Shown piece after piece: positions 44,605 through 63,820 of a stretch of 64,000 nt of DNA. The notes under the pieces were generated by a model. That model saw only the letters and a program-made list of their open reading frames with translations, was not told the DNA's origin and did no database searches. The stretch is from Zooshikella harenae. GTDB taxonomy: Bacteria > Pseudomonadota > Gammaproteobacteria > Pseudomonadales > Zooshikellaceae. The stretch is taken from positions 124,001-188,000 of the forward strand of contig NZ_JAGSOY010000003.1 of assembly GCF_018837975.1 (NCBI RefSeq), read 5' to 3'. Numbering within the stretch: position 1 is the stretch's first letter; each line of letters begins with the position of its first letter. The translations under genes were made by a program, and so were the position numbers.

Positions 44605-44638
44605 ACCTATGTTTTTACAATACCTATGCTTTTACAAT
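44605..44638. repeat. 17-bp tandem duplication across a stop codon
   Basis: ACCTATGTTTTTACAAT is followed immediately by a copy with one change. The second copy contains the stop codon of the PLP decarboxylase gene, so the duplication touched the gene end without changing its length materially. Confidence 0.7.
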
Positions 44639-45861: not shown

Positions 45862-47447
45862 CAGTCGTTAACTCCGAATAATGTTTGGAACTGACTGGTA
45901 AGTAGTTTGCGGTCAATTTTACCATTCGGATTCCTAGGAAGTGTTGCTAAGCATTGCAGCTTGAGTGGAACCATAAAACCTGGGAGTTGGGCTTTACAAG
46001 CATTGATGACTGCAGCCTCATCAATAGATGTATCAGGCTGGCTTGCAGTCACGACTAATATTATTGCCTGACCTAGTTGGGGGTGGGGAATACCTAAGGC
46101 CACAACTTCTCCTACAAGCCCTGAGGCATACACGACCTCTTCAACTTCAGAGGGGCTAACTCGATAGCCTGAGGTTTTGATCATGTCATCGTTGCGTCCA
46201 ATAAAGTAGAGAAAACCATCATCATCTTTTTTCACGATGTCCCCTGACCAAACGGCTAGTTCTTCTGTGGGAATGCCTGATAGTTTTGTTGGGGATGGAC
46301 GGAAACGGAGTTCTGTTTTTTCTGGATCATTCCAATACCCCATCGCAACAAGGCTGCCACGGTGAACAAGTTCACCTGGCTCATGGGGTTCACATTCTTC
46401 GCCTGCTTCATTAATAACGAGTAATTCGGCGTTGGGAATGGCTTTTCCCATAGAGGTTGGACGTTTATCCAGTTCATTTGGTGGCAAGTAACTTGAACGA
46501 AATGCTTCAGTTAAACCATACATCAAATACGGCTGGGTTTCTGGAAGCGAGCTTCTTAGTTTCGTCAACGTTGCCGTTGGCATAGCACCACCAGAGTTTG
46601 TGATGTAACGTAAAGTCTCTTTTGCTTCATCTGGCCACTCAAGTTCAGCAAGTTGAACCCATAGTGGTGGAACTGCAGCTAAGCCAGTAATTTGGTAGCG
46701 TTGAACAGCTCGAATGACATCTTTAGGTAGCAGGTAGTCCATGAGATAACAACTGGCACCACGACAAAATGCAGTGGTGATTTGGCTTAGTCCGTAGTCA
46801 AAACTCATGGGTAATACAGCTAATAAACGGTCTTTAGTGGTATTTTGTAAATATTGAGCAACACTGTGGGCACCTGTCACCATATTACGATGAGAAAGTA
46901 CGACACCTTTAGGGCGACCAGTGCTTCCTGATGTATATAAAATAGCCGCCATGTCAGTATCTATGGTCGCTGTAGTGATGAGTCTTGGGCTTGTATTAAG
47001 CCATTGCTGCCAACTGATGACAGTGCAGGATAAATGGTGCTCCTCAGGAACTTCATCAATACACACTACTAGGCGTAAATCATGGCAATGATGAAGTTCA
47101 TCCATCAACTGCTGTAAACGTGCGCGTTGGGTAATGAGCACTCTTACATTACAATCTTGTAGTATGTATTTTACCTGAGCGGGTTTGAGGATGGGATTGA
47201 TGGGTACAAATGTACCTCCAGCCATAGAGCAGCCAAAAAAGGTAAAAACAGCTTCAGGAAGTTTGGGCAAGTAAATAGCAACACGCTCAAATCGTCGGAG
47301 ATCTGCTTGATGTAATGCAGTTGCAGTGAGTTGAACGGCTGTCTCTAATGTTTTGTAGGTTATTGTTTGTGTTTTAAATCCCAAAGCGACATGATCAGGG
47401 TGTTGTGTTGCAGCGTGTTGATAGAGTTCGTGAAGTAGTTGCGTCAT
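45861..47447 (-). CDS. AMP-forming acyl-CoA/aminoacyl ligase, exosortase A system-associated
   Basis: 528 residues of the ANL superfamily. The phosphate loop is AILYTSGSTGRPKGVVLSHRN, the aromatic box is YLMYGLTEAFRSSY, the hinge is FIGRNDDMIKTSGYRVSPSEVEE, and the C-terminal catalytic Lys lies in RNPNGKIDRKLL. This is the TIGR03098 type. It should activate a carboxylic or amino acid as an adenylate and load it on the locus ACP. It is the first gene of a two-gene minus-strand operon. Confidence 0.93.
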   Translation of the reverse strand: MTQLLHELYQHAATQHPDHVALGFKTQTITYKTLETAVQLTATALHQADLRRFERVAIYLPKLPEAVFTFFGCSMAGGTFVPINPILKPAQVKYILQDCNVRVLITQRARLQQLMDELHHCHDLRLVVCIDEVPEEHHLSCTVISWQQWLNTSPRLITTATIDTDMAAILYTSGSTGRPKGVVLSHRNMVTGAHSVAQYLQNTTKDRLLAVLPMSFDYGLSQITTAFCRGASCYLMDYLLPKDVIRAVQRYQITGLAAVPPLWVQLAELEWPDEAKETLRYITNSGGAMPTATLTKLRSSLPETQPYLMYGLTEAFRSSYLPPNELDKRPTSMGKAIPNAELLVINEAGEECEPHEPGELVHRGSLVAMGYWNDPEKTELRFRPSPTKLSGIPTEELAVWSGDIVKKDDDGFLYFIGRNDDMIKTSGYRVSPSEVEEVVYASGLVGEVVALGIPHPQLGQAIILVVTASQPDTSIDEAAVINACKAQLPGFMVPLKLQCLATLPRNPNGKIDRKLLTSQFQTLFGVND

Positions 47448-47644
47448 TAGCAGTTGCTCATCCTTAAGTAATCAGTTTAAGGTAGGTGCTTTGAGTTTCA
47501 TGGTTAATAAATGGCTTTAGCGGCTTTATACTTTTGAGTGGTAAGCTTGCGATAAATATTGTGTTTCCATTACATGGGAGCCTATGTTAAATCACTTGCT
47601 TTGGGTATAAGCATAGCTAATTAGAGCACTTGGTTGGTTATAAA

Positions 47645-48439
47645 ATGAATGGAATCTTTTTGCAATTACAGCGAACCGCTTTTGTGGTGTTAGCCTATTT
47701 TCTGTTGGGGATAAGCCAACTAAGTTATGGTGCACACTTTCCTGATGTGGTTGCCAAGGTTAAACCATCGATAGTCGGTGTTGGAACCTATAATGTCACA
47801 GCATCACCTGCAGCACAGTTAATTGCTACAGGTTTTGTTGTCCATGATGGTTATCATGTTGTCACAAATGCGCATGCTATTCCTGAAATATACTCTGCTA
47901 AGTATCAAGGTAAGCGCAAGTTGGTTATCTTTGTTGGGCAGGGGCGTCGCCCAGAGCTGCGTGAAGCTCGTGTTTTACAAAAAGATACTGATCATGATTT
48001 GGTACTATTGAGAATTAAAGGCGCTCGTTTGCCTGCATTAACGTTAGGCCAAGCTAAACAGGCAAGGGAAGGGGAGTCCATAGCATTCACAGGATATCCT
48101 ATTGGTGCTGTGCTAGGTTTATATCCTGTCACTCATCAAGGCATTATTTCCAGTGTGACGCCAATTGTAATACCTGCAGCTAATGCAAGACAGTTGGATA
48201 TTCAGCAGATAAAGCGTTTAAGGCATCCTTATAATGTATTGCAGTTGGATGCGACTGCTTATCCAGGAAATAGCGGGAGTCCAGTTTATTTAAGACAAAG
48301 CGGGAAAGTTGTAGGCGTAATTAATAAGGTATTTGTGAAAGAAACAAAAGAGTCAGTTTTACAAAAACCGAGTGGGATTACCTATGCTATTCCTGTCAAC
48401 CATGTTAAAAATTTAATATCAAAGTTAACAAAGAAATAG
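47645..48439 (+). CDS. Secreted trypsin-like serine protease (S1 family)
   Basis: 264 residues from the ATG at 47645; a TTG 15 bases earlier is a weaker start. A signal peptide ends near LSYGA. The catalytic triad is seen as His77 (VTNAHAIPE), Asp118 (DTDHDLVLLRI) and Ser210 (YPGNSGSPVY). There is no PDZ domain, so it is not a DegP. A periplasmic or secreted protease, perhaps exported by the type II system downstream, is inferred. It converges on the next gene with a 7-base gap. Confidence 0.85.
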   Translation: MNGIFLQLQRTAFVVLAYFLLGISQLSYGAHFPDVVAKVKPSIVGVGTYNVTASPAAQLIATGFVVHDGYHVVTNAHAIPEIYSAKYQGKRKLVIFVGQGRRPELREARVLQKDTDHDLVLLRIKGARLPALTLGQAKQAREGESIAFTGYPIGAVLGLYPVTHQGIISSVTPIVIPAANARQLDIQQIKRLRHPYNVLQLDATAYPGNSGSPVYLRQSGKVVGVINKVFVKETKESVLQKPSGITYAIPVNHVKNLISKLTKK

Positions 48440-48446
48440 CATATTA

Positions 48447-48719
48447 TTAAAATGGTGTGCGTCGGTCAGCCTGAGAGCGGCGCTCTCCTGTCACCACAAT
48501 ACCACTTGAGTCTCTGAAAGGAAAAAACACAGACTGTGTATTTGTTCGACGATCACCTGCTTGCTGTCTTTTTGTAAAAGCTTGCTCCATTTTCCCTGGA
48601 GGTGGTGTGTTGTCCGATACCTGTTTAGAGACGTACTGTCTTGCAGCTGCTGCAAAAATGTAGGTTAGTAAAATACCTACAAATATAAAACCTAATAAGT
48701 AAAACCATACATGTGCCAT
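48447..48719 (-). CDS. Small single-pass membrane protein of unknown function
   Basis: 90 residues. One membrane helix (about 5-27, WFYLLGFIFVGILLTYIFAAA) is followed by a basic cytoplasmic or periplasmic tail with two related arginine pairs, AGDRRTN and QADRRTP. GGGAG lies 6 bases before the ATG, so it is probably real. No known family is recognised. It could be a small regulator or assembly factor. Confidence 0.65.
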   Translation of the reverse strand: MAHVWFYLLGFIFVGILLTYIFAAAARQYVSKQVSDNTPPPGKMEQAFTKRQQAGDRRTNTQSVFFPFRDSSGIVVTGERRSQADRRTPF

Positions 48720-49113
48720 TTTAAACTCCCTTATTAACAGATCAATAAGGTGATAGTGTTTAAATACTAAGCAAATGATAGGCCGCTTTTTTTAACCAAC
48801 TGAATAAAAAAGATTATTCTTATTTGTTTGAAGTAGTTGTAGTATTACTGTAATAATTTCTGACGTTTGTTTTAAAGGTATGTCTTGGTGAAGGCTAGGT
48901 TTTGGTACAATTCTTTCAGGAATTTTTGAGTGAGTTTCAATTATCTTCTATTAAAATATGGCATATGAACTATGCTGCTAGTGGTAATTTTTTGAGTAAG
49001 GCATTTTTAATGCTGAAGATAAACTAGAATTTTTTATCTTTATTTTCAACTTGTGAGTAACAAGTGTAAAAAATAATCAAATTCTTTAGGTGTTTGATGA
49101 ATCAGAGGATGTT
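48720..49113. other. Divergent intergenic region before the HAD-like gene
   Basis: About 390 AT-rich bases. A small hairpin (ACTTGT-GAGTA-ACAAGT, 49049-49065) lies about 50 bases before the HAD-like gene. No promoter of convincing quality was found. Confidence 0.4.
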
Positions 49114-49476
49114 ATGTCTGGTTGGATAGGAGTTGATCTTGACGGTACATTAGCACGTTATGATCACTGGAGAGGACCCGAACATATTGGTGAACCTATA
49201 AAGCCAATGTTAGAGAGAGTGAGAAGTTGGCTGATGCAAGGACAAGAGGTTCGTATTTTTACAGCAAGAGCCTCAATTCCAGAGTATATACCTTTTGTTG
49301 AGCGTTGGTTGGAAAAAAATGGGCTTACCGGGCTAGAAATAACGAATGTAAAAGACTTTAGAATGATTGAGTTATGGGATGATCGATGTATACAGGTTGT
49401 GACTAATAAAGGCAAGCCTATTCGAACGAAAGGTCCATGGATGAATGGATTAAGAAGATTTTTCGTAAAGTTGTAA
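49114..49476 (+). CDS. Small HAD-like hydrolase
   Basis: 120 residues from the ATG at 49114, which has AGAGGA 5 bases upstream; a GTG 24 bases earlier is less likely. GVDLDGTLARYDHW is the HAD motif I with the two Asp residues, IFTARAS is motif II, and LWDDR carries the acidic motif IV. It is a short HAD without a cap, of the kind that acts on phosphorylated small molecules, or an inactive relative. No operon partner is evident. Confidence 0.75.
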   Translation: MSGWIGVDLDGTLARYDHWRGPEHIGEPIKPMLERVRSWLMQGQEVRIFTARASIPEYIPFVERWLEKNGLTGLEITNVKDFRMIELWDDRCIQVVTNKGKPIRTKGPWMNGLRRFFVKL

Positions 49477-49547
49477 GCCAGATCAACAATACTGAGGTTA
49501 CAGATAGTTTATTGGACGCTATGCAGCTTATTTATATTTAAAAAAAG

Positions 49548-49574
49548 AAAAGGGCCTGTAATATCAACCCTTTT
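49548..49574. terminator. Probable intrinsic terminator between convergent genes
   Basis: AAAAGGG (49548-49554) pairs with CCCTTTT (49568-49574) over a 13-base loop, with A-rich and T-rich flanks. It can serve the HAD-like gene and the sugar transferase. Confidence 0.5.
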
Positions 49575-49630
49575 TATATGTTTGTGATAATTTCTTATGA
49601 TGCTGTTTAATGGTAAATATATTACAACAG

Positions 49631-51037
49631 TTAGCGTGCGCCTTTACCAAATAAAATCACTTCTACTGTTTGGATAAGGATTAAAATATCCAAAAACAAA
49701 CTGTGGTTTTTTACATAGTAAAGGTCATATTGTAACTTATGTAGAGCATCTTTATCGGATGCCCCATAGGGATAACACAACTGAGCCCAGCCTGCGATAC
49801 CTGGTTTGATGCGGTGGCGTTCATTATAGTAAGGAATCTTGTCAGTTAATTGGCTGACAAATTCAGGCCTTTCAGGTCTAGGTCCAACAAACCCCATATC
49901 TCCTCTTAAGACATTAAAGATTTGGGGTAGCTCGTCAACTCGATATTTGCGAATAATTTTGCCTACGCGAGTGACTCGTGGATCATTTTGTTGGGCCCAC
50001 TGTGGTTTTCCTTTTTTCTCCGCATCTACGCGCATACTTCTGAATTTAAGTACGTTAAATGTATTACCGTTTAGTCCGACGCGCTTTTGTTTATACATGA
50101 GAGGTACTTTGAACCCCTCTTCTAACCAGATGGCTAGGATGGTGATTGCAATGAATGGCCAAGCAAAGGCTAAAAGCGTTAGGCTAGCAAGGATATCAAA
50201 TGCGCGTTCGGAATATACGCGTAAGTTACTTTGACCAAAACCATCGGAAAAAATAATCCAGCTTGGGTGTAGTAAATCAAGCTCTATTTTGCCTGTTTCT
50301 CGTTCAAAAAAAGTTAAAACATCAACAACATCAATGCCACTTAGCTTACAGTCAAGTAATTCGTTGATTGGAAAGTTTCGGCGTCGATCATCAACAGCAA
50401 CTACTATTTCATCAATATTGTGAGTATTAGCAAACTCTACAAGTGATTGTTCAGTGTTCAATATAAAGTCTGGATTTACAACATCTTCTTCGTCAGCAAT
50501 ATGCATATAGCCAACTATATTGAAGCCTCTCCGGTCTGTTCTTCTGCGTAACCGTTGAGCAATATTATTGGCGCGATGCCCTGCACCAAGTACTAATACC
50601 TGTCGCTTTAAAATATTTTCATCCACTAATCGGGTAAAGAAAAAGCGAGTAACACCAATAGCAACAAATGTGAAAAGAACGGTGAGAATGAAGACACCAC
50701 GCCCTATTAAAAGGGTAGGAAATAAGAAGAAGCATAGTGACAAGATAATACTGCCGAAAATAAAGCTTATTGCTGCTCTGATGAGCATTCCTGTAAAGCC
50801 TTCTCTAAGCCTTGCTTGATAAAGCCCCATAGCAATCATGCTGATAATGAAAACTGCACCTAGTAATATGGCTCTGAATAATAGTGGGCTAGTAGGCTCT
50901 GTATGAATGGGATCAAAGGTCCCAAACCTAAAGTAGGTGCCAAGGTATGTTGCAAGTACAAAAAGGCATAGCTCAAATATACCTAAGAGGAGGTAGGGGA
51001 CTCGCACATGATGTTTGAAAATACGAATACTGCTCAC
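49631..51037 (-). CDS. XrtA-system sugar-phosphate transferase (EpsB/WcaJ-like)
   Basis: 468 residues, GTG start with GGGAG 5 bases before it. Four N-terminal helices (about 12-135) are followed by a CoA-binding-like domain (VLVLGAGHRANNIAQRLRR), then a fifth helix and the bacterial sugar transferase domain: FNVLKFRSMRVDAEKKG, YRVDELPQIFNVLRGDMGFVGPRPERPEF and KPGIAGWAQL. This is the TIGR03013 type, which loads the first sugar phosphate onto undecaprenyl phosphate. In most XrtA loci it lies with the export genes; here it is 27 kb from the core operon's end and reversed. Confidence 0.93.
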   Translation of the reverse strand: MSSIRIFKHHVRVPYLLLGIFELCLFVLATYLGTYFRFGTFDPIHTEPTSPLLFRAILLGAVFIISMIAMGLYQARLREGFTGMLIRAAISFIFGSIILSLCFFLFPTLLIGRGVFILTVLFTFVAIGVTRFFFTRLVDENILKRQVLVLGAGHRANNIAQRLRRRTDRRGFNIVGYMHIADEEDVVNPDFILNTEQSLVEFANTHNIDEIVVAVDDRRRNFPINELLDCKLSGIDVVDVLTFFERETGKIELDLLHPSWIIFSDGFGQSNLRVYSERAFDILASLTLLAFAWPFIAITILAIWLEEGFKVPLMYKQKRVGLNGNTFNVLKFRSMRVDAEKKGKPQWAQQNDPRVTRVGKIIRKYRVDELPQIFNVLRGDMGFVGPRPERPEFVSQLTDKIPYYNERHRIKPGIAGWAQLCYPYGASDKDALHKLQYDLYYVKNHSLFLDILILIQTVEVILFGKGAR

Positions 51038-52322: not shown

Positions 52323-54656
52323 TTAGTTACGAATATCCAAGCAGCCTTGTTTAGCGGCTTGTAATTGCTTGCACAAGGATTGAGCCTGGTGACGGTCATT
52401 AAGTCCGCTAAAGACAACGCGGTAATAAACACCTTTGCTGCCCATATTTGACTCTTTCACTTCAGGTGTCAGGTTGCCCAGCAGTTGAGAATGCTGGGAT
52501 TGGATTTTGTTTGCAGCTTGTTGGGCTGCAGCAGAAGAGCGGTAAGAGGCTAACTGAATCCCCCAACCTGGACCACCAGTGGCAACAGGTGCATTGCCTT
52601 GAGTTTGAGCAGAAGGACTACCACGACGTGCTGCTGGTGCGGGTTCTTGCCAAATTGTTGGCTTATTACTTGAGCTGTTTTTACGCTTTTGAGGCGAATC
52701 AAACAAGCCGCTAGCATTTTGTGGAAGCACTCGGTCAAGATTAAATTTCTCTGACTTTTTATCAAGCTTATTGCGAACCATTTTAATTGAAGAAAACTTG
52801 TCATCTGTAAGCGCTGCATTTTCTTGTTCATTTAGCACAATAGAAGTCTTTATAAAGACCATCAGGTTTCTTTTAGTATGCGTATCAGCATCGTTCTCAA
52901 AAAGCCGCCCTAAAAGAGGAACAGAGCTAAGAAAAGGAACAGCACTTTCAGACTGATTTACATCATCTTGAACTAATCCTCCAAGTACAATAGTTTCATT
53001 ATTGTTAACTTGGATTGTACTTTTTATAGTTCGCTTATTGGTAACCAAACCATCAACACCACTTTCTGAGCTTGGTACCACAGCAGAAATTTCTTGATCG
53101 ACTTCTAAGCGAAGTGTTTCACCTTCGTTGATGTGAGGTGTAACTTTTAAACGAACACCAACATCTTTTCGTTCTGTGGTAGTAAAGGGATTGCTGGAGC
53201 CTGAGGAGTCTGTAGTATAAGAGCCTGTTTCAAAGGGGACTTCCTGACCTACCAGGATTTCAGCTTCCTCATTATCTAGCGTCATAATGCTGGGAGTTGA
53301 TAGTAAGTTACTATTAGCTGTAGTGGTTAGTGCATTAACAAGAACACCAAAGTTAGAGTTACGAAGCGCAATACTACCAATGTTTATTTTGCTGTTATCA
53401 AAAATAGCTCCAGTAATTGAGCTTTTTGCACCGTCTGTTCCTGATGAGGTTTTTGTTCCATCTATTCCCCACTGAATGCCAAGTGCTTCATTGATGCTGC
53501 CTGATACTTCAACAATCGCTGCTTCAATTAGTACTTGAGCACGTCTCACATCAAGTTTGCGTACGATATTTTCAATCTCACGAACAAGTTCTGGGGATGC
53601 AGCAATAATCAGTGCGTTGTTGTCGATATCAGCTTTGACAGCAACTTGTTTAGACTCTTTGCTATCTTTGCCTCCGGCAATACTTCCACTTAGTGATTTA
53701 GTTAAGTCTGCAAGAGTTTCTGCCAGCTTTTCTGCATCAGCATGACGTAGGTGAATTACACGTGTTAACGAAGTCGCTTCAGAGGCTATATCCATGGCTT
53801 TAGCCAGGCGGCGTACTTGTTGACGAAACTGGGACTTACCAGTAACTAAAAGGCGGTTGGTGCGTTCGTCAGCGATAAGCTCTCCACTAAGCTTACGATT
53901 TTGTTGTTTGCCAAGTAAGCTTTCTTTGATGACTTTAACCAAGTCGCCAACCCAGGCATTTTCAAGTTTTATGATGTCAAAGTTAGTGCTTTCTGCCATA
54001 TCCATTTCACGGATAAGTTTGGCTAGCCTCTTTACATTGCTGACATGGTCACTAATGATTATGGAGTTACTGGAAGCAATTGCTGCAGCGTGGCCATATT
54101 GAGGAATTAAAGGACGAATTACAGGGATTAACTCAACGGCAGATAGATTTACCAACTCCACTACGCGAGTGATCATTGTGCCTGAGTTAGGTTTAGTGTT
54201 GGGAGCGAACTCAGGAGCATCACTTTTAGCACGGTTGATAGGAACAATGTTCAGGGTTTTACCCTGAGGAACTGCAGTAAAACCATTGGCCTGTAATACG
54301 GACAGGAATACATCGTAAATTTCGTCTCTGGATAATGGAGTTGATGAAACTACGGTTACGTTGTTCATACTTTTTATTCGGGGGTCTATGATGATGGTTT
54401 GTCCCGTTATTGAGGCAACCTGAGCAATGAACTCACGAATATCTGCATTTTTCTGGTTTATGGTCCACTTTTTCTCTGTTTCAGCGCTTTCTTCTGCATA
54501 GCTGTGTATTGGCATTGATGCACAAAAACAGAGTAAAGAGGTATTAATTATAAGCCGGGTGAAGCGGCCAAGTTTAGTTTTTGGGTGTTGGTAAGGCATG
54601 AGTGTTTTCCAAAAGTCCCGACACTTTTCCTCGTTCTTGACAGTAAAAGGTTGCAT
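52323..54656 (-). CDS. gspD: Type II secretion secretin GspD with C-terminal SPOR domain
   Basis: 777 residues. A signal peptide ends near HSYA-E (residue 54); a start at the second ATG (54599) would remove 19 residues before it, but the first ATG has GAGGG 8 bases upstream. N0-N3 domains occupy about 62-370 (ADIREFIAQVASITGQTIIIDPRIK opens N0). The secretin domain spans about 380-612, with NNETIVLGGLVQDD, VPFLSSVPLLGRLFE and RNLMVFIKTSIV. Residues 697-777 are a SPOR domain (GWGIQLASYRSSAAAQQAANKI, then VYYRVVFSGLNDRHQAQSLCKQL) after a Pro/Ser/Gln linker. Secretins normally end in an S-domain bound by a pilotin, and a SPOR tail is unusual. It may anchor the channel to peptidoglycan. Confidence 0.94.
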   Translation of the reverse strand: MQPFTVKNEEKCRDFWKTLMPYQHPKTKLGRFTRLIINTSLLCFCASMPIHSYAEESAETEKKWTINQKNADIREFIAQVASITGQTIIIDPRIKSMNNVTVVSSTPLSRDEIYDVFLSVLQANGFTAVPQGKTLNIVPINRAKSDAPEFAPNTKPNSGTMITRVVELVNLSAVELIPVIRPLIPQYGHAAAIASSNSIIISDHVSNVKRLAKLIREMDMAESTNFDIIKLENAWVGDLVKVIKESLLGKQQNRKLSGELIADERTNRLLVTGKSQFRQQVRRLAKAMDIASEATSLTRVIHLRHADAEKLAETLADLTKSLSGSIAGGKDSKESKQVAVKADIDNNALIIAASPELVREIENIVRKLDVRRAQVLIEAAIVEVSGSINEALGIQWGIDGTKTSSGTDGAKSSITGAIFDNSKINIGSIALRNSNFGVLVNALTTTANSNLLSTPSIMTLDNEEAEILVGQEVPFETGSYTTDSSGSSNPFTTTERKDVGVRLKVTPHINEGETLRLEVDQEISAVVPSSESGVDGLVTNKRTIKSTIQVNNNETIVLGGLVQDDVNQSESAVPFLSSVPLLGRLFENDADTHTKRNLMVFIKTSIVLNEQENAALTDDKFSSIKMVRNKLDKKSEKFNLDRVLPQNASGLFDSPQKRKNSSSNKPTIWQEPAPAARRGSPSAQTQGNAPVATGGPGWGIQLASYRSSAAAQQAANKIQSQHSQLLGNLTPEVKESNMGSKGVYYRVVFSGLNDRHQAQSLCKQLQAAKQGCLDIRN

Positions 54657-54659
54657 GCT

Positions 54660-55385
54660 TTAACCCTCTGTGGAGTTGTTTTCGAGAGCACGCATCCTTT
54701 CTCTGAGCTCTTGCATTCGTTGTTTTATCTGAGATTGATCGTAACTCGGTGTATAAATGGGTGCTTTTTCCTTTTCACGTTTAACTGGTGTTGACGGCAG
54801 TAATGATGTGGGCTCTGGACGGGAAAAAGCGGAATCTTGAGTAGGTTGTGCAGGAGCTTTGGGTAATTGGGTGATGTTAACTTCAATTGCCTGAAAACGA
54901 CTTTGCCCATGAGCTTCTGGAAAGTAAAGAGTTTCAAGGACCCCATTTCGAGAAATAACCACATGATCAGAATGCACCTTATCAAGTTGTGCATTGCCTG
55001 GTAACGTATCACCTACATAGTAAAGCGCAGTTCGCCGGTCACTTCCTTCAATAATGGCACTGGATAACTTGTCATCCGCATTAGCAAAAGCGCCTTTAAG
55101 TATTAAGCGTAGATTAGTTTTAGGAATGTTCTTTTGGACCGTCTGAGCGTCCTCTCCACGGCCAAATAGGAGAGCGACATTTGCAGGATTAATAGCGGCC
55201 TTCTGATACTGAGAGGGATTTCGAACAATTTCTGGTTGGAGTGGCTCAGCAACAAGCAGGGTATAGATTGATAAACCTTGGGAAGCAACTGTCATCCCTA
55301 TTATGGTTAATAGGACGAAGGTGAGCACCGTGATATTTTTAGGGTGCCCCCAGATAAGGTAAGGAGGTAGCGAAGCTGCTTTCAT
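54660..55385 (-). CDS. gspC: Type II secretion inner-membrane protein GspC
   Basis: 241 residues. One N-terminal helix (about 18-40, ITVLTFVLLTIIGMTVASQG), then the HR domain (LRLILKGAFANADDKLSSAIIEGSDRRTALYYVGDTLPG, about 90-165) which contacts the secretin N0. The C-terminus is a Pro/Gln-rich and then coiled-coil segment (QIKQRMQELRERMRAL) rather than a PDZ domain, as in the Pseudomonas XcpP. It precedes gspD by 3 bases and is divergent from gspE-M, the xcpPQ/xcpR-Z arrangement. Confidence 0.93.
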   Translation of the reverse strand: MKAASLPPYLIWGHPKNITVLTFVLLTIIGMTVASQGLSIYTLLVAEPLQPEIVRNPSQYQKAAINPANVALLFGRGEDAQTVQKNIPKTNLRLILKGAFANADDKLSSAIIEGSDRRTALYYVGDTLPGNAQLDKVHSDHVVISRNGVLETLYFPEAHGQSRFQAIEVNITQLPKAPAQPTQDSAFSRPEPTSLLPSTPVKREKEKAPIYTPSYDQSQIKQRMQELRERMRALENNSTEG

Positions 55386-55832: not shown

Positions 55833-57404
55833 ATGACTGCGCAAGTACAAATCAAGTCAGTCCAAAAAGAGGCTGCGAATGGTGAAAACAAGGAAGTATC
55901 GTCGCAGCCAGAGCTAACAAATCAAGAAGTTTCTTTTGAGGAAAAGCGTCTACCTTTTGCGTTTGCTAAAAAATATGGCGTACTTTTTCAAATGCAGGAA
56001 GATGGTCATGTACGGGTGTTCCATAAAAAGGGCCTAACCCCCGTGATTGCCGCCGAGCTTAGGCGATATACTGCTTCCAGCATGAGTTATGAATTAGTTG
56101 ATGAAGACCGTTTTGGTGAGTTGCTTTCTGTCAGTTACCAGAGTGATAGTGGCGCACTGCAAAATGTTGCGGGTATTGGCGATGACATGGACTTGGCCAG
56201 TTTGGCTGATCAGGTACCAGAGTCAGAGGATCTGCTTGAGCAAGCGGATGATGCCCCCATTATACGATTGATCAATGCTATTTTATCTGAAGGAATCAAA
56301 GAAGAAACATCAGATATTCATATTGAAACTTTTGAAAAGCACCTAGCAGTGCGTTTCAGGGTTGATGGTGTGTTGCAAGAAAAACTTCGACTGAAAAGAC
56401 AGCTTGCGCCACTGTTGACTTCTCGTATCAAAGTCATGTCCAAATTGGACATTGCTGAAAAACGTGTGCCACAAGATGGACGAATTGCCTTACGGGTAGC
56501 GGGTAAAGAAGTAGATGTACGGGTATCTACATTGCCTTCTAACAGTGGTGAGCGAATTGTAATGCGTCTATTAGATAAGTCCGCTGGACGCTTAAACTTA
56601 ACCCACCTGGGTATGTCTGCAGATGATATGCAGCTAATGAAAACTGTACTGTCGCGTCCTCATGGTATTATCCTTGTCACAGGACCTACTGGGTCTGGTA
56701 AAACGACCTCTTTATATGCTTCGCTTTCAACACTTAATGATCAGACTCGCAATATCCTTACTGTAGAAGACCCTATTGAATATAACTTGGAAGGTATCGG
56801 TCAAACGCAAGTTAATACTAAAGTTGATATGACCTTTGCGCGAGGGTTGCGGGCTATTCTCCGACAAGACCCTGATGTGGTGATGGTGGGGGAGATTCGT
56901 GATACTGAAACGGCTGAGATTGCAGTTCAGGCCAGTTTAACAGGTCACCTTGTACTGTCCACTTTGCACACTAATAGTGCGGTTGGAGCTATTACTCGCT
57001 TACAGGATATGGGGGTTGAACCTTTTCTGTTATCCTCAAGTTTGGTGGGTGTTGTTGCGCAACGGCTGGTTCGTCGATTATGTCAAAACTGCAAAGAGCC
57101 TTATCGTCCTGATGAAGCTGAATGTTTGCGGCTGCATTTAAATGTTGATGTCCCTCCAGAAATATACCGAGCTAAAGGCTGTGCTGAGTGTAACTATACT
57201 GGCTATAAAGGCCGAAATGGGATTTATGAGATAATCCCTGTTGACAGCGAGGTGCGTCGGTTTATTCATAACCAGGCAGGAGAGCAGGAAATCATTGAAT
57301 ACATTCGTATAAGCAGGCCTAGTATTCGAGAAGATGGGCGACGTAAAGTGTTGGCCGGATTGACAACACTGGAAGAAGTTTTAAGGGTAACACAAGAAGA
57401 TTAA
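55833..57404 (+). CDS. gspE: Type II secretion ATPase GspE
   Basis: 523 residues, cytoplasmic hexameric ATPase that drives pseudopilus assembly. An N-terminal domain (about 40-130) binds GspL. Walker A is [10 protein letters not shown] (residues 284-293, Lys290), the Asp box is [10 protein letters not shown], Walker B is [15 protein letters not shown], and the His box is [14 protein letters not shown] zinc-binding pair of CxxC motifs (LCQNCKEPY and GCAECNYTG) is present. Length and motifs are standard. Confidence 0.97.
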
Positions 57405-57418
57405 CATAAGGTTTAAGT

Positions 57419-58636
57419 GTGGCCGCTTACGAATATACAGCCCTGAATGCCAAGGGAAAACAAGAACATGGTACATTGGAAGCAGATAGTGCTCGACAGG
57501 TTCGACAGCTGCTTAGAGAAAAAAGATTAACACCACTGACTGTTGAAATTGCGTCGCAACAAGAACGTAAAGCGAAGAGTGGTGGAAGCTTGTTAGCAGG
57601 AGGAATTTCTACCTCAGCGCTCGCACTGCTTATTCGTCAATTAGCAACACTCATTCAAGCAGCATTACCCATTGAAGAGGCTCTACGGGCTGTTGCTGAG
57701 CAGCAGGAAAAACAACGTATTAAAAATGTTGTGCTTTCGGTTCGTTCCAAAGTGTTAGAAGGTTATACCTTAGCACAAAGCATGGAGTGCTTCCCTGGCG
57801 TGTTTCCTTCAATGTATTGTGCGACAGTTTCTGCAGGAGAACATGCAGGGTTTTTGGATAAGGTACTTAATCAACTGGCTGATTACTCAGAGTCTCGTCA
57901 GCAATCTCAGCAAAAAATTAAAATGGCTTTAGTCTACCCAGCACTGTTAATTATAGCGTCGTTTGGGATTGTTGCGTTCTTATTAGGGTTTGTGGTTCCT
58001 GATATAGTTAAAGTCTTTATTGATAGTGGTCAGGAACTTCCTGCACTAACCACAATCTTGATATCATTGAGTGATGTCGTTAAGGACTTCTGGTATCTCA
58101 TTGTGCTTGCCATCATTGGTTTTGTGGTGGGTACCCGTTACCTGTTAAGCAAGCCACCCATTAAGCTTCGTTTTCACCGTTTTATTTTACGGGTGCCATT
58201 GGTTGGTCGCTTGAATCGGCAGATGAATACTGCACGTTTCGCTAGTACGTTGAGTATTTTGACACGAAGTGGAGTGCCCTTAGTTGATGCGTTAAAAATT
58301 GCCACAGAGGTGGTTTCTAACCTTTATATAAAACAGGCACTCAGTATTTTGCCTCAACAGGTGAGTGAAGGGGTGAGCTTAACAAAGGCGATGGAGCAGT
58401 CAGGTCACTTTTCTCCCATGATGCTGCATATGATTGCAAGTGGAGAGGCCAGTGGGGAACTTGATGATATGCTGGAGCGTACAGCGCGGAGTCAAGAAAA
58501 TGACTTGGAGAGCCGAATGGCCGTTATAGTTGGTTTATTTGAGCCGTTGACGCTGATGTTTATGGGTGGAATTGTATTGATCATTGTACTTGCAGTGTTA
58601 TTGCCCATCCTTAACATGAACCAGCTTCTAGGTTAA
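57419..58636 (+). CDS. gspF: Type II secretion inner-membrane platform GspF
   Basis: 405 residues, GTG start (MAAYEYTALNAKGKQEHGTLEADSARQVRQLLREKRLTP). Two T2SSF domains (about 70-195 and 270-395) with three membrane helices, near 170, 225 and 385, are visible. The signatures LIRQLATLIQAALPIEEAL and FASTLSILTRSGVPLVDAL are conserved. It links the ATPase and the pseudopilus. Confidence 0.96.
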   Translation: MAAYEYTALNAKGKQEHGTLEADSARQVRQLLREKRLTPLTVEIASQQERKAKSGGSLLAGGISTSALALLIRQLATLIQAALPIEEALRAVAEQQEKQRIKNVVLSVRSKVLEGYTLAQSMECFPGVFPSMYCATVSAGEHAGFLDKVLNQLADYSESRQQSQQKIKMALVYPALLIIASFGIVAFLLGFVVPDIVKVFIDSGQELPALTTILISLSDVVKDFWYLIVLAIIGFVVGTRYLLSKPPIKLRFHRFILRVPLVGRLNRQMNTARFASTLSILTRSGVPLVDALKIATEVVSNLYIKQALSILPQQVSEGVSLTKAMEQSGHFSPMMLHMIASGEASGELDDMLERTARSQENDLESRMAVIVGLFEPLTLMFMGGIVLIIVLAVLLPILNMNQLLG

Positions 58637-58663
58637 TACAACGAGAATGTAAGGAATGAAACT

Positions 58664-59104
58664 GTGAGAAGAAATGTTGCAAGGCCGAAGCAGTCAGGCT
58701 TTACCCTTATTGAAATTATGGTTGTTGTGGTAATTCTGGGTATTTTGGGTGCGCTTGTTGTACCTAAAATAATGAGCCGTCCTGATCAAGCCAAAGTGAC
58801 AGTTGCTCGTTCTGATATCGCAAGCATTAAAACAGCACTGGAAATGTATAAGCTTGACAACCATAACTATCCTAGCACTGACCAAGGTTTGGAGGCTCTC
58901 GTTAGTAAACCCAGTGGACAGCCTGAAGCGCGTAACTGGAATCCTGATGGTTATTTAGAAAAAATACCTGTTGATCCATGGGGACGTCCCTATCAGTTTC
59001 AGGCTCCAGGAAACCATGGCAAGTTTGATCTTTATTCTTTAGGTGCTGATGGTAAAAAAGGTGGTGAAGGTTTTGATACAGACATCACTAGCTGGGAAAG
59101 TTAA
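58664..59104 (+). CDS. gspG: Type II secretion major pseudopilin GspG
   Basis: 146 residues, GTG start. The prepilin site is QSG-FTLIE (Gly12/Phe13, Glu17) followed by a hydrophobic helix. The body carries the calcium-binding end DLYSLGADGKKGGEGFDTDITSW, typical of GspG. This is the main pseudopilus subunit. The prepilin peptidase is not in the window. Confidence 0.97.
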   Translation: MRRNVARPKQSGFTLIEIMVVVVILGILGALVVPKIMSRPDQAKVTVARSDIASIKTALEMYKLDNHNYPSTDQGLEALVSKPSGQPEARNWNPDGYLEKIPVDPWGRPYQFQAPGNHGKFDLYSLGADGKKGGEGFDTDITSWES

Positions 59105-59107
59105 CGA

Positions 59108-59668
59108 ATGAAGTTAATGCCCTCCAAAAAGCCGTTGTCCAAAGGGTTTACACTTGTTGAAATATTAGTAGTCATTGTCATTATTGGTACATTAGTTGGT
59201 ATAACAGTGGTGAGCCCATTAATGAGTGATGGGGGGCAAAAAGCTTTACAAGACGAGTCCCGACGGTTACAGCAGCTGTTTCAATTAGCTGCTGACCATG
59301 CGCTGTTAAAAGGCGTTGAGCTTGGTTTTAAAAGTGATGGTCGTCGTTATGAGTGGTTTCAGTTTAATGAGGATGAAAATGCCTGGCAGCCTATGGAAGA
59401 AGGACATTTTCAGCAGTATGAAATACCTGAAGGGCTGACTTTGGATGTAAAGCCTGAAGAGGATCCATTTCTAAACAGAAAATCAACCACGACTAAAGGC
59501 AAATCTAAGCAAAAAAAAGATAAAGGGAAAGTAACTCCTGATATCGTTGTTTATAGTGACTCTCAGGTTACACCCTTTCGTATGACTCTCTCCGATGACA
59601 GTTCCAAAACACCTTATTATTTAGTCTCTGATGGTTTCAATGGCATTGAAGTTAAAACGGAAAAGTAG
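59108..59668 (+). CDS. gspH: Type II secretion minor pseudopilin GspH
   Basis: 186 residues. Prepilin site SKG-FTLVE (Gly13/Phe14, Glu18). A Lys-rich stretch (TTTKGKSKQKKDKGK, about 122-138) is an unusual insertion in the C-terminal part. It lies 3 bases after gspG and overlaps gspI by 38 bases in another frame. Confidence 0.92.
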   Translation: MKLMPSKKPLSKGFTLVEILVVIVIIGTLVGITVVSPLMSDGGQKALQDESRRLQQLFQLAADHALLKGVELGFKSDGRRYEWFQFNEDENAWQPMEEGHFQQYEIPEGLTLDVKPEEDPFLNRKSTTTKGKSKQKKDKGKVTPDIVVYSDSQVTPFRMTLSDDSSKTPYYLVSDGFNGIEVKTEK

Positions 59669-60038
59669 GGGATTTACGCTGCTGGAAGTTATGATCGCAT
59701 TAGCGATTTTTGCTTCGGCTGCAGCTGTAGTTGCGATGTCAGGATCAACTGGGGTTAAGCAGGCAGCTTATCTTGAGGATAAGATCCTTGCTGGTTGGGT
59801 GGCTGAAAACTATCTAAACCAATTAAAACTTTCTCGTGAGTGGCCTGATACTGGAGAAAAGCAAACATCAGTACGCTTTGCTGAGCGAGACTGGCAAATC
59901 ATAGCAGAGACAAAAACAACAGGTCAGGAAGGATTTCGACGCATTGAAATCGCAGTGATTCCTGATCAGGGTGGCAGTGTTAATAAGGAACGAAGTCTTT
60001 ATCGCATGATTGGTTTCTTAAGGAAGCATAGCGAATGA
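59631..60038 (+). CDS. gspI: Type II secretion minor pseudopilin GspI
   Basis: 135 residues. Prepilin site SRG-FTLLE (Gly14/Phe15, Glu19). The start at 59631 or the ATG at 59640 both lie inside the end of gspH. The segment GWVAENYLNQLKLSREWP is typical of GspI. It overlaps gspJ by 4 bases (ATGA). Confidence 0.93.
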   Translation: MVSMALKLKRKSRGFTLLEVMIALAIFASAAAVVAMSGSTGVKQAAYLEDKILAGWVAENYLNQLKLSREWPDTGEKQTSVRFAERDWQIIAETKTTGQEGFRRIEIAVIPDQGGSVNKERSLYRMIGFLRKHSE

Positions 60039-60772
60039 CGACTTTGGTTGTAGCTAAAATAAAGAATATGACACGTAGTGATGGCTTTACTCTTTTAGAG
60101 TTGATGATAGCCATTGCTATTTTTTCGATTATGAGTATGGCTGCATACTCACTGTTTCATACAACTGCACGAACGCAAGCTGTTACAGAAAAAAGCCTTA
60201 GCCGTCTTAATGAAGTGCAACGTGCTTTTTTGATTATGGAAAAAGATTTTTCGCAGCTGGCACCTCGTCCAATTAAAAGTGAATTAGGGGAGCCACTCCC
60301 TGCTTTTGTCGCTAATCAAGGAGGTTACTTAGTTGAATTTACCCGGCAGGGGTGGCGTAATCCTGCCCTGGCTAAACGTAGCGAGTTTCAACGAGTAGCT
60401 TACACGCTTGAAGATGACAAGCTAATTCGGCGGTTTTGGTTAGTATTGGACCGCGCACCGAATGCACCTTATAAGGAACAAGTCATTTTAACTGGAGTTA
60501 ATGGCATTAGTTTTCGCTTTCTCAATCAAGAGCATAATTGGGTTGAAGACTGGGCTGTGGCAAATAATAATACTGGAGCCTCAAACCCCTTTGCAAATAA
60601 TAACGCTGATCCTAAAGAACTTGTGCCAGGTGGAGTTGAATTGTCTCTGGATGATCCTCGCTATGGCCGAATGGTGAGGTATTTTGTGGGTGTGAGTACG
60701 CCGAAACCGCAACAAAATAATCAGATTCCAAATGGAGGAGGTCAATCAGGCTTCTCTGGAGGAAGAGAATAA
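60035..60772 (+). CDS. gspJ: Type II secretion minor pseudopilin GspJ
   Basis: 245 residues. Prepilin site SDG-FTLLE (Gly17/Phe18, Glu22). The C-terminus is Asn/Gly/Gln-rich (NNNTGASNPFANNNAD and QQNNQIPNGGGQSG), longer than usual. It forms the tip with GspI and GspK. Its stop overlaps the gspK start by one base. Confidence 0.93.
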   Translation: MTTLVVAKIKNMTRSDGFTLLELMIAIAIFSIMSMAAYSLFHTTARTQAVTEKSLSRLNEVQRAFLIMEKDFSQLAPRPIKSELGEPLPAFVANQGGYLVEFTRQGWRNPALAKRSEFQRVAYTLEDDKLIRRFWLVLDRAPNAPYKEQVILTGVNGISFRFLNQEHNWVEDWAVANNNTGASNPFANNNADPKELVPGGVELSLDDPRYGRMVRYFVGVSTPKPQQNNQIPNGGGQSGFSGGRE

Positions 60773-61953
60773 TGTTCAGTAAAAAGCGTATCCCTCTGCC
60801 TCCTAAGCGCCAGCGCGGTGTTGCACTAATTTTTGTGATGGTTATTTTTAGCCTAATCAGTGTGATGGTAGCAAAAGTAGTTACAGAACTTCATTTTCAG
60901 ACTGATCGAACTTCTCACTTTTTAATGCGGAGTCAGGCTCGGGCCTATGCGTTGGCAGCAGAAGACTTGGTTGCTCAATTGCTGCTAGCTGATTTAGAAA
61001 AAGATAAAAAAAGCCAGCCTGCTGGAACAAATAACCCCAACCCTACTCCTTCAGGGCCAAATACATCAGCAACCTCTTCCACGGTTGATCACTTAAAAGA
61101 ACCTTGGAGTCTAATTGATCGATACTATCCTCTCGATGAAATTGAATCAGGCGTGATTGGCGAAAGTAAAGATAAAGACAAAATTAAAGAAGGTGATTAC
61201 ATTTATATTAATGTGATTGACTTGCAAGGCTATATCAATGTGAACTGGCTAGGCTCTGCAAATAAACAGTCTAATAACAATACAAATAATAATAGTACGT
61301 CAGGAAACACGAACCCTACACCTGGTAAGTCAAATAAATCAGGAGGGAAGGATTTATTCAATAATTTGATCACTAAACTGGGTCTTAAAGTGCCTTCTCC
61401 ACAGATAACTGACTGGGTTGATGAAGATGATCAAACCACTCCTGGTGGTGGCTTTGAGGATAACGAATACTTGTTAAATGAGCTACCTTATCGAGCTGCA
61501 GACAGGCCAATGAGGTCAATTTCTGAGTTAATGTTTCTTCCTAAAATGGATGCCAAGCTTTATAAGCAACTAGCACCGTATCTTGTGGCTTTACCTGCAG
61601 ATAGTAAGTTAAACATTAATACTGCCCCCAAAGAAGTTTTGATGTCATTGTTGCCGAATATGCAGGAAGCTCAAGCGGAAGAAATTATTCGCCAGCGAGG
61701 TGATAAAGGATTTGACTCAGTCAATAAGCTCACTTCATTGTCTATGTTTGCAGGGCAGGGAAATAAACTAAGTAGTGATGCACTCGTTGTTTCTAGTAAC
61801 TATTTTTTAGCCGTAATCACCGTTAAGTTTGCTGATGCACGTTATCATATGCTCAGCTATTACAAGCGGGCAGATAAACAAGTTGATATTATTGCCCGGG
61901 CAGAGGGCCGCTTGCCAGCACCTTTAATCCAAAATAAACCAAAAAAGACATAA
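60772..61953 (+). CDS. gspK: Type II secretion tip pseudopilin GspK
   Basis: 393 residues. The prepilin site is QRG-VALIF (Gly16/Val17), and the residue at +5 is Phe rather than Glu, as normal for GspK. Two low-complexity insertions are rich in Asn, Ser, Thr and Pro (about 82-105 and 162-195, e.g. NNTNNNSTSGNTNPTPG). The C-terminal part LNINTAPKEVLMSLLP is the family HhH-like segment. Confidence 0.94.
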   Translation: MFSKKRIPLPPKRQRGVALIFVMVIFSLISVMVAKVVTELHFQTDRTSHFLMRSQARAYALAAEDLVAQLLLADLEKDKKSQPAGTNNPNPTPSGPNTSATSSTVDHLKEPWSLIDRYYPLDEIESGVIGESKDKDKIKEGDYIYINVIDLQGYINVNWLGSANKQSNNNTNNNSTSGNTNPTPGKSNKSGGKDLFNNLITKLGLKVPSPQITDWVDEDDQTTPGGGFEDNEYLLNELPYRAADRPMRSISELMFLPKMDAKLYKQLAPYLVALPADSKLNINTAPKEVLMSLLPNMQEAQAEEIIRQRGDKGFDSVNKLTSLSMFAGQGNKLSSDALVVSSNYFLAVITVKFADARYHMLSYYKRADKQVDIIARAEGRLPAPLIQNKPKKT

Positions 61954-61971
61954 TTTAGGCTGTTAATTGGT

Positions 61972-63315
61972 ATGGAACATCACCTTTTTGTACGGATTTT
62001 ATCTCTACCTAGTGAAGACCCTGCAGATATTGATACTGAGTGGTTGCTGTGTTCCAGTGAAGGTGAGGTTATCAGTGGTCCAGCTAAAGGAAGCTTGTTA
62101 TCGGTTCAAGAAACGCTCACTGAAGAAAATGCTTTAGGTCAGGCCAAAACCGTGTTTATTTTACCAGGTGATCAGGCACTACTTGTTAAAGTACCTATCA
62201 GTGATGCTCAGATGAAACATATAAAGCAAGCATTGCCTTATATGTTAGAAGATCACTTGGTAAACGATGTGGATGATATGCACATTGTCACAAATAGCCA
62301 AGTGCATGAAAAGATGCTCCCTGTTGCAGCCATTGCGCATGAGTCAATGAGTAAGCTGTTTGTCGCTATTTCTGATTTAGCACTGAATCCTTATCTCTGT
62401 ATCTCTGAGGCTCAGTTAGTCAATACAACCTCTTCAGAGGTTATACAAGTAGTTGTTGAGGGTGATAAAGCCTTAATGGCGATTCCTGAAGAAAACTACT
62501 TTAGTGTAGATACCTCAATTCTTCCGATGACATTGCAAACTGTATTAGAAAACCCTGCTGAATATCGCATGATTGATGCAGAAGATGATCCGGCATTAGC
62601 GATGTCTGTGGGCTTTACAAGGTTAAAAGTAACAGTAGCTAAACCTGTTACCTTAGAAATAAAGCGGCTATTAAAACAATTAGAGCAACAACTGCAGCCA
62701 TACCAAATTGAGCTAGAGTTTTCTGCTTTAAAGGGCGCTACTTTTCACTACTTATGCCGTAGTTTTTTGCAAAGTCAGAACCGTAATAAATTTATTAACT
62801 TATTTCAAAGTCAATATGCTGTTAATGCAGACAGTAGTGCTGGGTTTGCGAAGTGGAAAAGTGTTATTTACTTGGCTGCGGGATGGGTTGTTGTTTCGTT
62901 GGGTCTGCATTTGGGGCAGGCAATATACTTTGGCCAGCAAAGTGAAGCCTTGCATCAACAAGCTGAAGAAATATTTCGCTCAATATACCCTAATGCACGA
63001 AATGTTTTTGATCTTAAAGACAGTATGACGAGTCGGATGAAACAGAATGCTTCTGTGGGGGGAGAAGGGGCTTTTATTAAACTACTGGTTGATGTTTCAT
63101 CTGTTACCCAGCAACTGGGAAGTCAGCAAATAAAACCTAAAAGTTTAGATTTTAATAGTTCTGGGAATTCTTTAATGCTTGAAGTGAATGCAAAGAACTA
63201 TGAAGTGTTGGATGCTTATGTCAATCAATTAAAGCAGCGTGGTATGAGTGCCAAACTAGAAACAGCGAATCAAGAAAAAGAGACTGTTTTAGCACGTATT
63301 AATATTCAAGCTTAA
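61972..63315 (+). CDS. gspL: Type II secretion inner-membrane protein GspL
   Basis: 447 residues. A cytoplasmic actin-like domain (about 1-280, VFILPGDQALLVKVPISDAQMKHIKQALPYMLEDHL) binds GspE. One membrane helix lies at about 300-322, and a periplasmic ferredoxin-like domain follows. It precedes gspM by 16 bases. Confidence 0.94.
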   Translation: MEHHLFVRILSLPSEDPADIDTEWLLCSSEGEVISGPAKGSLLSVQETLTEENALGQAKTVFILPGDQALLVKVPISDAQMKHIKQALPYMLEDHLVNDVDDMHIVTNSQVHEKMLPVAAIAHESMSKLFVAISDLALNPYLCISEAQLVNTTSSEVIQVVVEGDKALMAIPEENYFSVDTSILPMTLQTVLENPAEYRMIDAEDDPALAMSVGFTRLKVTVAKPVTLEIKRLLKQLEQQLQPYQIELEFSALKGATFHYLCRSFLQSQNRNKFINLFQSQYAVNADSSAGFAKWKSVIYLAAGWVVVSLGLHLGQAIYFGQQSEALHQQAEEIFRSIYPNARNVFDLKDSMTSRMKQNASVGGEGAFIKLLVDVSSVTQQLGSQQIKPKSLDFNSSGNSLMLEVNAKNYEVLDAYVNQLKQRGMSAKLETANQEKETVLARINIQA

Positions 63316-63331
63316 AAGGTAGATTGATAGC

Positions 63332-63820
63332 ATGGCATCACCTTTCGTGGAAAAAATAACTGCACAGATAAATGCAATGCCTGAACGAGATCGACGTGCT
63401 TTGTTGATTATGGTTGTTGCTGTCACTTTGACTGTTGTTTATATGTTAATTTGGGATCCTGTTATGCAGTGGTCTGAAGAGTCACGAAAGGAGTATCATT
63501 CAAACATGGATACGCTGGCTTTTATTCAGGCAAATGAGCAGGCTGCAAGACAAAGTGCAAGTCAGGGGGGGCTGCAAGTCTCACAGGATAAACTTTCTGC
63601 TATTGTAACTGGCGCAGCTAGACAGCAAGGTATTAAATTAAGCCGAGTGCAACCTTCTAATGAGGGGGTGACAGTATGGATGGATAAGGTTGCTTATCAG
63701 AAACTGTTGGCTTGGGTCATTAACTTACATAACCAATATCATTTTACTATCGAGAAAATTAGAGTTGATGCTCAGGATGAGGCTGGAATGGTAAGGGCAT
63801 ATCTGAGTATAAGGTTGTAA
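63332..63820 (+). CDS. gspM: Type II secretion inner-membrane protein GspM
   Basis: 162 residues. One membrane helix (about 24-42, LLIMVVAVTLTVVYMLIWDP) and a periplasmic coiled and ferredoxin-like domain (ARQQGIKLSRVQPSNEGVTVWMDKVAYQKLLAWVINLHNQY). It stabilises GspL. It is the last gene of the visible operon; gspN is not seen in the remaining 180 bases. Confidence 0.93.
   Translation: MASPFVEKITAQINAMPERDRRALLIMVVAVTLTVVYMLIWDPVMQWSEESRKEYHSNMDTLAFIQANEQAARQSASQGGLQVSQDKLSAIVTGAARQQGIKLSRVQPSNEGVTVWMDKVAYQKLLAWVINLHNQYHFTIEKIRVDAQDEAGMVRAYLSIRL

Follow-up and report, generated by a model that had tools for sequence, protein, structure and literature searches.

The window analysed here is a stretch of 64,000 nucleotides from contig NZ_JAGSOY010000003.1 of Zooshikella harenae (host assembly of 5.9 Mb). 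It contains, on the reverse strand, a gspD gene, encoding the secretin of a type II secretion system (T2SS), whose C-terminus carries a SPOR domain, of the kind that binds peptidoglycan. The frame is intact over its 777 codons and is closed by a stop codon at 52323-52325; coordinates of the gene, of its domains and of the neighbouring genes are collected in Table 1. The protein matches the type II secretin model of NCBIfam (TIGR02517, GspD) over residues 67-617, above the cut-off of 351.35 bits. With the PilQ model the score is 197.9 bits, where the cut-off stands at 284.35. Pfam recognizes type_II_gspD_N0, Secretin_N, Secretin and SPOR; no AMIN match is present in GspD at E up to 1. The lipobox of liposecretins (HxcQ type) was not spotted at the N-terminus, inspected by eye.

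The C-terminal tail of GspD

The SPOR family model (PF05036) matches residues 696-772 with 44.3 bits (E 2.3e-11), about twice the curated cut-off of 21, in agreement with a first-pass annotation of the window, where residues 697-777 (positions 52326-52568) had been read as a SPOR fold behind a Pro/Ser/Gln linker; the linker, too, is present in the sequence. When residues 690-777 are folded by AlphaFold2 (AF2), using a two-sequence alignment, the resulting model has a mean predicted local distance difference test score (pLDDT) of 82.6 and a predicted template modelling score (pTM) of 0.69. Its elements are ordered as strand-helix-strand-strand-helix-strand, the SPOR topology, plus a short extra helix. 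The nearest known structures are SPOR domains of RlpA, which take ranks 1 and 2 in the Foldseek list: 6i09, a complex with denuded glycan (probability 1.00, E 2.7e-3, template modelling scores, TM, of 0.66/0.73), and 6i05. VIA-align, here a re-scoring of the Foldseek list and no independent search, gives Z scores of 10.7 and 10.8 to the two RlpA entries. It is followed by 6ozd, an exported protein, with 9.0, and by CwlC with 8.7; no other row exceeds 6.5. Known SPOR structures are also reached by sequence: a profile of eight SPOR domains, the window's included, retrieves FtsN (7.3e-10), as well as CwlC, RlpA and DedD, from the sequences of the Protein Data Bank (PDB). At E up to 1 this profile collects 15 PDB sequences, six of them SPOR (1uta, 1x60, 6i05, 6i09, 6i0a, 6ztg) and nine not, including 3jqh, at 7e-7 without any single stretch passing.

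Residues in contact with the glycan are described for two SPOR proteins in PMC6895207: in RlpA the glycan is held by Q270, R302, R309, R311 and F274, along with many main-chain contacts, and in FtsN changes of Q251, S254, W283, R285 and I313 reduce septal localisation. In the alignments, Q701, S704, Y744 and R746 of GspD correspond to FtsN Q251, S254, W283 and R285, and Y705 to RlpA F274. Counting profile positions with residue 696 as Pfam position 3, the glutamine at position 8 and the aromatic residue at position 12, as placed by PMC6895207, are both found, in the form of Q701 and Y705.

Some of the results weigh against a true, glycan-binding SPOR domain. Not all of the AF2 models succeeded, a single one out of five being at pLDDT 46.6, as compared to 79-83 for the rest; no structural match by Foldseek is as good as E 1e-3; the Z score to DedD is 5.5; a phmmer search of PDB sequences with the tail alone retrieves no SPOR entry, but two chains at E 0.67 and 0.77. 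As for the contacts, the place of RlpA R311 is taken by V748, and R302 falls in a loop with only K741 nearby, so that the basic patch for the muramic carboxylate appears thinner than in RlpA. In two SPOR tails from other lineages, described below, the key glutamine is, by eye, a lysine (genome G230) or an asparagine (Acidovorax): these tails may bind differently, or not at all. Nevertheless, judging from the family match and the predicted fold, the tail of the Zooshikella GspD is a true SPOR domain.

The same tail is found in all five Zooshikellaceae genomes sampled (G000 to G004, where G000 is the window's own genome): the GspD of Zooshikella ganghwensis is 94% identical to that of the window, and the remaining ones 62-65%. 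Selection on its codons was evaluated by rough Nei-Gojobori values, obtained at high synonymous divergence (dS). For the window paired with Z. ganghwensis, omega amounts to 0.022 for the core, 0.095 for the S-domain, 0.22 for the linker and 0.044 for SPOR, where 38.3 synonymous differences over 56.8 sites face 13.7 non-synonymous ones over 189.2 sites. A pair from the sister genus gives 0.015, 0.022, 0.153 and 0.025, respectively. For a second such pair dS is saturated in SPOR, and the proportion of non-synonymous differences (pN) is 0.041 in SPOR vs 0.245 in the linker; linker omega is 0.22, 0.15 and 0.26 in the three Zooshikellaceae pairs. The SPOR domain is thus under stronger purifying selection than the linker in this family. 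Purifying selection is established in Zooshikellaceae only, since in a pair from genus g22 of family f21 the conservation of SPOR does not clearly exceed that of the linker (pN 0.28 vs 0.31, dS saturated), a further point on the negative side. The first-pass annotation had named, as a possible flaw, a frameshift joining two genes: this is unlikely, because the tail is in frame in all five genomes and its SPOR codons mostly change synonymously.

Alignment with ten other GspDs locates the junction. The S-domain stretch is kept up to an LFDS motif, and is followed by a linker of about 40 residues and by SPOR; the SPOR-less GspD of Parendozoicomonas (L039) ends about at LFDS. The same picture is repeated in family f21, where five GspDs of genus g54 stop shortly past the LFD motif, and the two of genus g22 (G270 and G024) continue past it into a linker and a SPOR domain. 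By these alignments, SPOR is appended behind the S-domain region, not substituted for it.

Near the end of the SPOR domain, two cysteines, C762 and C772 (codons within 52341-52373), may form a disulfide. C772 lies, by eye, near the place of FtsN C312, and the place of the partner of the latter, C252, is taken by L702.

Occurrence and origin of SPOR-tailed secretins

In the order, GspD is matched with an E value no higher than 1e-60 in 322 of 390 genomes. A search for the tail gives matches in 15 of the 390, and 7 of these span both S-domain and SPOR (the five Zooshikellaceae and the two of genus g22). An eighth SPOR-tailed genome of the order, G230, surfaced in a search of the phylum (398 genomes), where joined matches are found in G000, G024, G270 and G230; in the class (369 genomes) they are found in G000 and G024 only. 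These surveys scored, for each genome, the top 8 or 9 candidates, with models built from tails already found, so that divergent tails may be missed. A SPOR match is also present in 8 of 107 distinct GspD tails, a non-random set, as it consists of the best matches to the window protein, with L192 added because of its tail, and excludes duplicates of tails already included as well as locus L004, which is partial. By sequence and single scans, the eight should be L008 to L013, L093 (Acidovorax sp. Leaf78) and L192 (G230). Twelve GspDs with frames of 750 amino acids or more, among the matches listed, show no SPOR tail when inspected by eye.

The Zooshikella genome has a further GspD without SPOR tail, L198 (contig C290), of 644 amino acids, beside a gene reading as gspC. 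A frame of 254 amino acids additionally contains a fragment of GspD (G000:C279:48261-48833). In G230 the SPOR-tailed gspD lies in a small cluster (L212:3029-8624) with genes that read, by eye, as gspC and as a putative exported metalloprotease; a second gspD match is located on a different contig.

A tree of the GspD core (38 rows) requires 4 changes of the SPOR label, 3 of which are forced by well-supported branches, and a single change is found in 0% of 200 bootstrap trees. Zooshikellaceae form one clade, whose sister branch (L039 and L208; the one that is named belongs to Endozoicomonadaceae) has no SPOR tail. SPOR tails were thus apparently gained separately in several lineages. Taken by itself, the tree may also fit losses, an argument on the opposite side; the domains, on the other hand, differ in kind between lineages.

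For genus g22 a likely donor is close at hand. In G024 a gene for a SPOR protein lies 3.6 kb downstream of gspD, and over 71 residues this protein and the G024 tail share 56% identity. With the SPOR protein whose gene is found 3.8 kb downstream of the G270 gspD the G024 tail shares 59%, and with such proteins in four other f21 genomes 53-56%; with SPOR proteins of other families identity is at most 49%, among the matches listed. Between the two g22 tails, identity amounts to 62%. By eye and by the customary gene order, the neighbouring genes are taken to be metZ, purF, cvpA, folC and accD, and the SPOR gene to be dedD. A SPOR gene is also present about 4 kb from the SPOR-less gspD of G341 (genus g54), so that the closeness of the two genes may predate the fusion. 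A search of open-licence papers for xcpQ together with metZ found nothing. The tail of G230, with a SPOR score of 25.1 bits, is presumably DamX-like, from its appearance.

Among the loci compared, no second SPOR protein from the Zooshikella genome is matched by the Zooshikella tail at E up to 1e-3. The nearest relatives of this tail outside the family, again among the loci compared, are SPOR proteins of three genomes from another class of the same phylum (40, 38 and 31% identity), and its plasmid matches, covering 63-68% of the query, come from 11 records, all from Azospirillum. An alphaproteobacterial source of this domain is a possible reading of these matches.

Domains of one type were apparently acquired more than once, each time in this position, which suggests that a link between channel and wall is selected for, and the nearby dedD-like gene of one lineage suggests how such a tail can arise.

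Probable wall anchoring and alternative roles of the tail

In the secretin 15-mer, the pilotin-bound C-terminal S-domain lies on the outside, as described in PMC6882859; a tail behind this periplasmic region, which is close to the outer membrane, should therefore be located between outer membrane and wall. There, a flexible tether of about 40 residues would carry the SPOR domain, and each assembled channel would present up to 15 such domains to peptidoglycan. By binding glycan strands devoid of stem peptides, these would fix the secretin in the wall, and would probably enrich the channel where denuded strands are common, that is at division sites and new poles. We regard this role of the tail, as peptidoglycan anchor of the T2SS secretin, as fairly probable: the cell-wall role anticipated by the first-pass annotation finds backing in the family match, the predicted fold and the glycan-contact residues.

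The systems to which such an anchor may be compared share only some of its features. SPOR domains of RlpA, FtsN, DedD and CwlC (6i05/6i09, 1uta, 6ztg and 1x60, respectively) have in common with it the fold and the glycan-contact positions, DedD weakly, but belong to division proteins or wall enzymes, and not to a secretion channel. Another case is LspD from Legionella, the only T2SS secretin with a specialised SPOR domain known as of 2022, according to PMC9239104. LspD carries an N-terminal SPOR-like domain and has no known pilotin and no GspA/GspB, as reported in PMC9239104 and PMC6617341. It thus resembles the Zooshikella GspD, a type II secretin with a predicted SPOR-type domain, for which no known pilotin and no GspB match were found. 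However, SPOR precedes N0 in LspD, while in Zooshikella it follows the S-domain region, the match at 696-772 being the sole one. The open-licence literature searched yielded no report of a T2SS secretin with SPOR at its C-terminus. PilQ, the type IV pilus secretin, is also an outer-membrane secretin with wall-binding domains of its own (PMC5285504), but these are N-terminal AMIN domains. GspA/GspB and OutB, finally, link the T2SS secretin to peptidoglycan as well (PMC9239104); they are, however, separate inner-membrane proteins, OutB binding to N0, whereas here the secretin itself carries the domain.

The comparison with GspA/GspB leads to the alternative, compatible with anchoring, that SPOR substitutes for this wall-binding assembly complex. 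A like pattern is described, and hinted at as a substitution, for LspD in PMC9239104. The model of GspB (PF16537), which gave no signal in any of 14 control genomes, finds a match in 27 of the 56 genomes searched in the order (24 over cut-off), but in none of the five Zooshikellaceae. In frames above 400 amino acids, these five have no PG_binding_1 match either. GspA has about 550 amino acids, and PG_binding_1 frames of 516, 556 and 574 amino acids are present in the SPOR-tailed G024 and G270; G024 also has a GspB match just over cut-off (29.8 vs 28.4 bits). Moreover, outside Zooshikellaceae a GspB match is missing from 24 of 51 genomes, none of them SPOR-tailed, and 18 of the 24 do have a GspD match: a SPOR anchor is therefore not generally needed, which also counts against the anchoring role. 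With five genomes of one family amounting to one event, and 18 GspD-bearing genomes having neither GspB nor tail, the coincidence of SPOR with an apparent lack of GspA/GspB is suggestive only, and we hold a substitution to be rather doubtful.

Slightly less probable still is that the tail mainly positions, guiding newly exported GspD monomers to where the cell divides, with the result that channels assemble within septal or polar wall. The analogy is with PilQ, whose AMIN domains direct the components of the pilus to sites of future division ahead of secretin oligomerisation (PMC5285504). This would be compatible with anchoring, and the sequence offers nothing to tell placing from holding.

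A tolerated domain fusion, with no role for the channel, would explain the patchy occurrence, the fast linkers, the likely donor gene close by in one lineage and the weak conservation within the g22 pair. It is, nonetheless, improbable, given that in the five Zooshikellaceae genomes SPOR codons are under purifying selection and contact residues are kept.

The first-pass annotation had also proposed that the tail may replace a pilotin. The AspS (PF16549) and PulS/OutS (PF09691) families, the two kinds of pilotin searched for, are indeed without match in the Zooshikella genome; they are, however, unmatched in all 56 genomes searched in the order, whether or not these have the tail, with an Escherichia coli control positive for both, so that their lack is general in the order and lends no support to a replacement. 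Candidate pilotins of another kind, PA3611-like, are mentioned in PMC3542185. An Ala-Phe pair in helix alpha-12 of the S-domain, the signature of pilotin dependence proposed in PMC6532946, is not seen by eye in residues 608-655, a point in favour of replacement. With the S-domain region retained, and a wall-binding domain that would not by itself give membrane targeting, we consider replacement of the pilotin very improbable.

Returning to the anchor, a broader scenario may be outlined, tentatively. T2SS secretins would have captured SPOR domains repeatedly, at the C-terminus and from different donors, one of them dedD-like and a few genes away, yielding a self-anchoring channel, which holds up to 15 SPOR domains on denuded, division-derived wall and does the job of the missing GspA/GspB. 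Wall-bound T2SS secretins would then come in two architectures, the other being that of LspD with its N-terminal SPOR. The case bears on how T2SS channels are set into the wall, and held there, in systems that show no known pilotin and no GspA/GspB, and a channel with its own glycan-binding domain would offer a direct way to probe anchoring, via its tail.

Neighbouring genes

The T2SS genes adjacent to gspD are listed in Table 1, along with the features of GspD discussed above.

Table 1. Features of gspD and neighbouring genes in the window (borders in window positions)
Feature	Position	Strand	Basis
gspD, 777-amino-acid type II secretin with C-terminal SPOR domain	52323..54656	-	single open frame; TIGR02517, 502.9 bits
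N0 domain, residues 66-134	54255..54461	-	PF21305, 85.9 bits
Secretin domain, residues 442-607	52836..53333	-	PF00263, 161.7 bits
S-domain region, residues about 608-655, to LFDS motif	52692..52835	-	alignment with SPOR-less L039; borders by eye
Pro/Ser/Gln/Ala-rich linker, residues about 656-695	52572..52691	-	sequence; borders by eye
SPOR domain, residues 696-777 (Pfam match 696-772)	52326..52571	-	PF05036, AF2, Foldseek, VIA-align
Q701, aligned with RlpA Q270 and FtsN Q251	52554..52556	-	alignments; contacts from PMC6895207
R746, aligned with RlpA R309 and FtsN R285	52419..52421	-	alignments; PMC6895207
gspC, directly upstream of gspD	54660..55385	-	PF11356, 84.7 bits; below TIGR01713 cut-off
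gspE-F-G-H-I-J-K-L-M, divergent from gspD	55833..63820	+	open reading frames; GspE, GspL over cut-off; GspM weak family-model match; others by eye
Decarboxylase	44632-45861		TIGR03099
Acyl-CoA ligase	45861-47447		TIGR03098
Glycosyltransferase	49631-51037		TIGR03013

A second SPOR match of the window is found at 649-828, within a 727-amino-acid open reading frame (544-2727), and scores 26.1 bits, with a cut-off of 21. Two alignments including the Acidovorax tail, A4 and A5, the former also including this second match, turned out to be misaligned, and were not used for folding.

Exosortase A (XrtA)/PEP-CTERM-associated genes are located near gspCD, at 44632-51037; they comprise the last three entries of Table 1.
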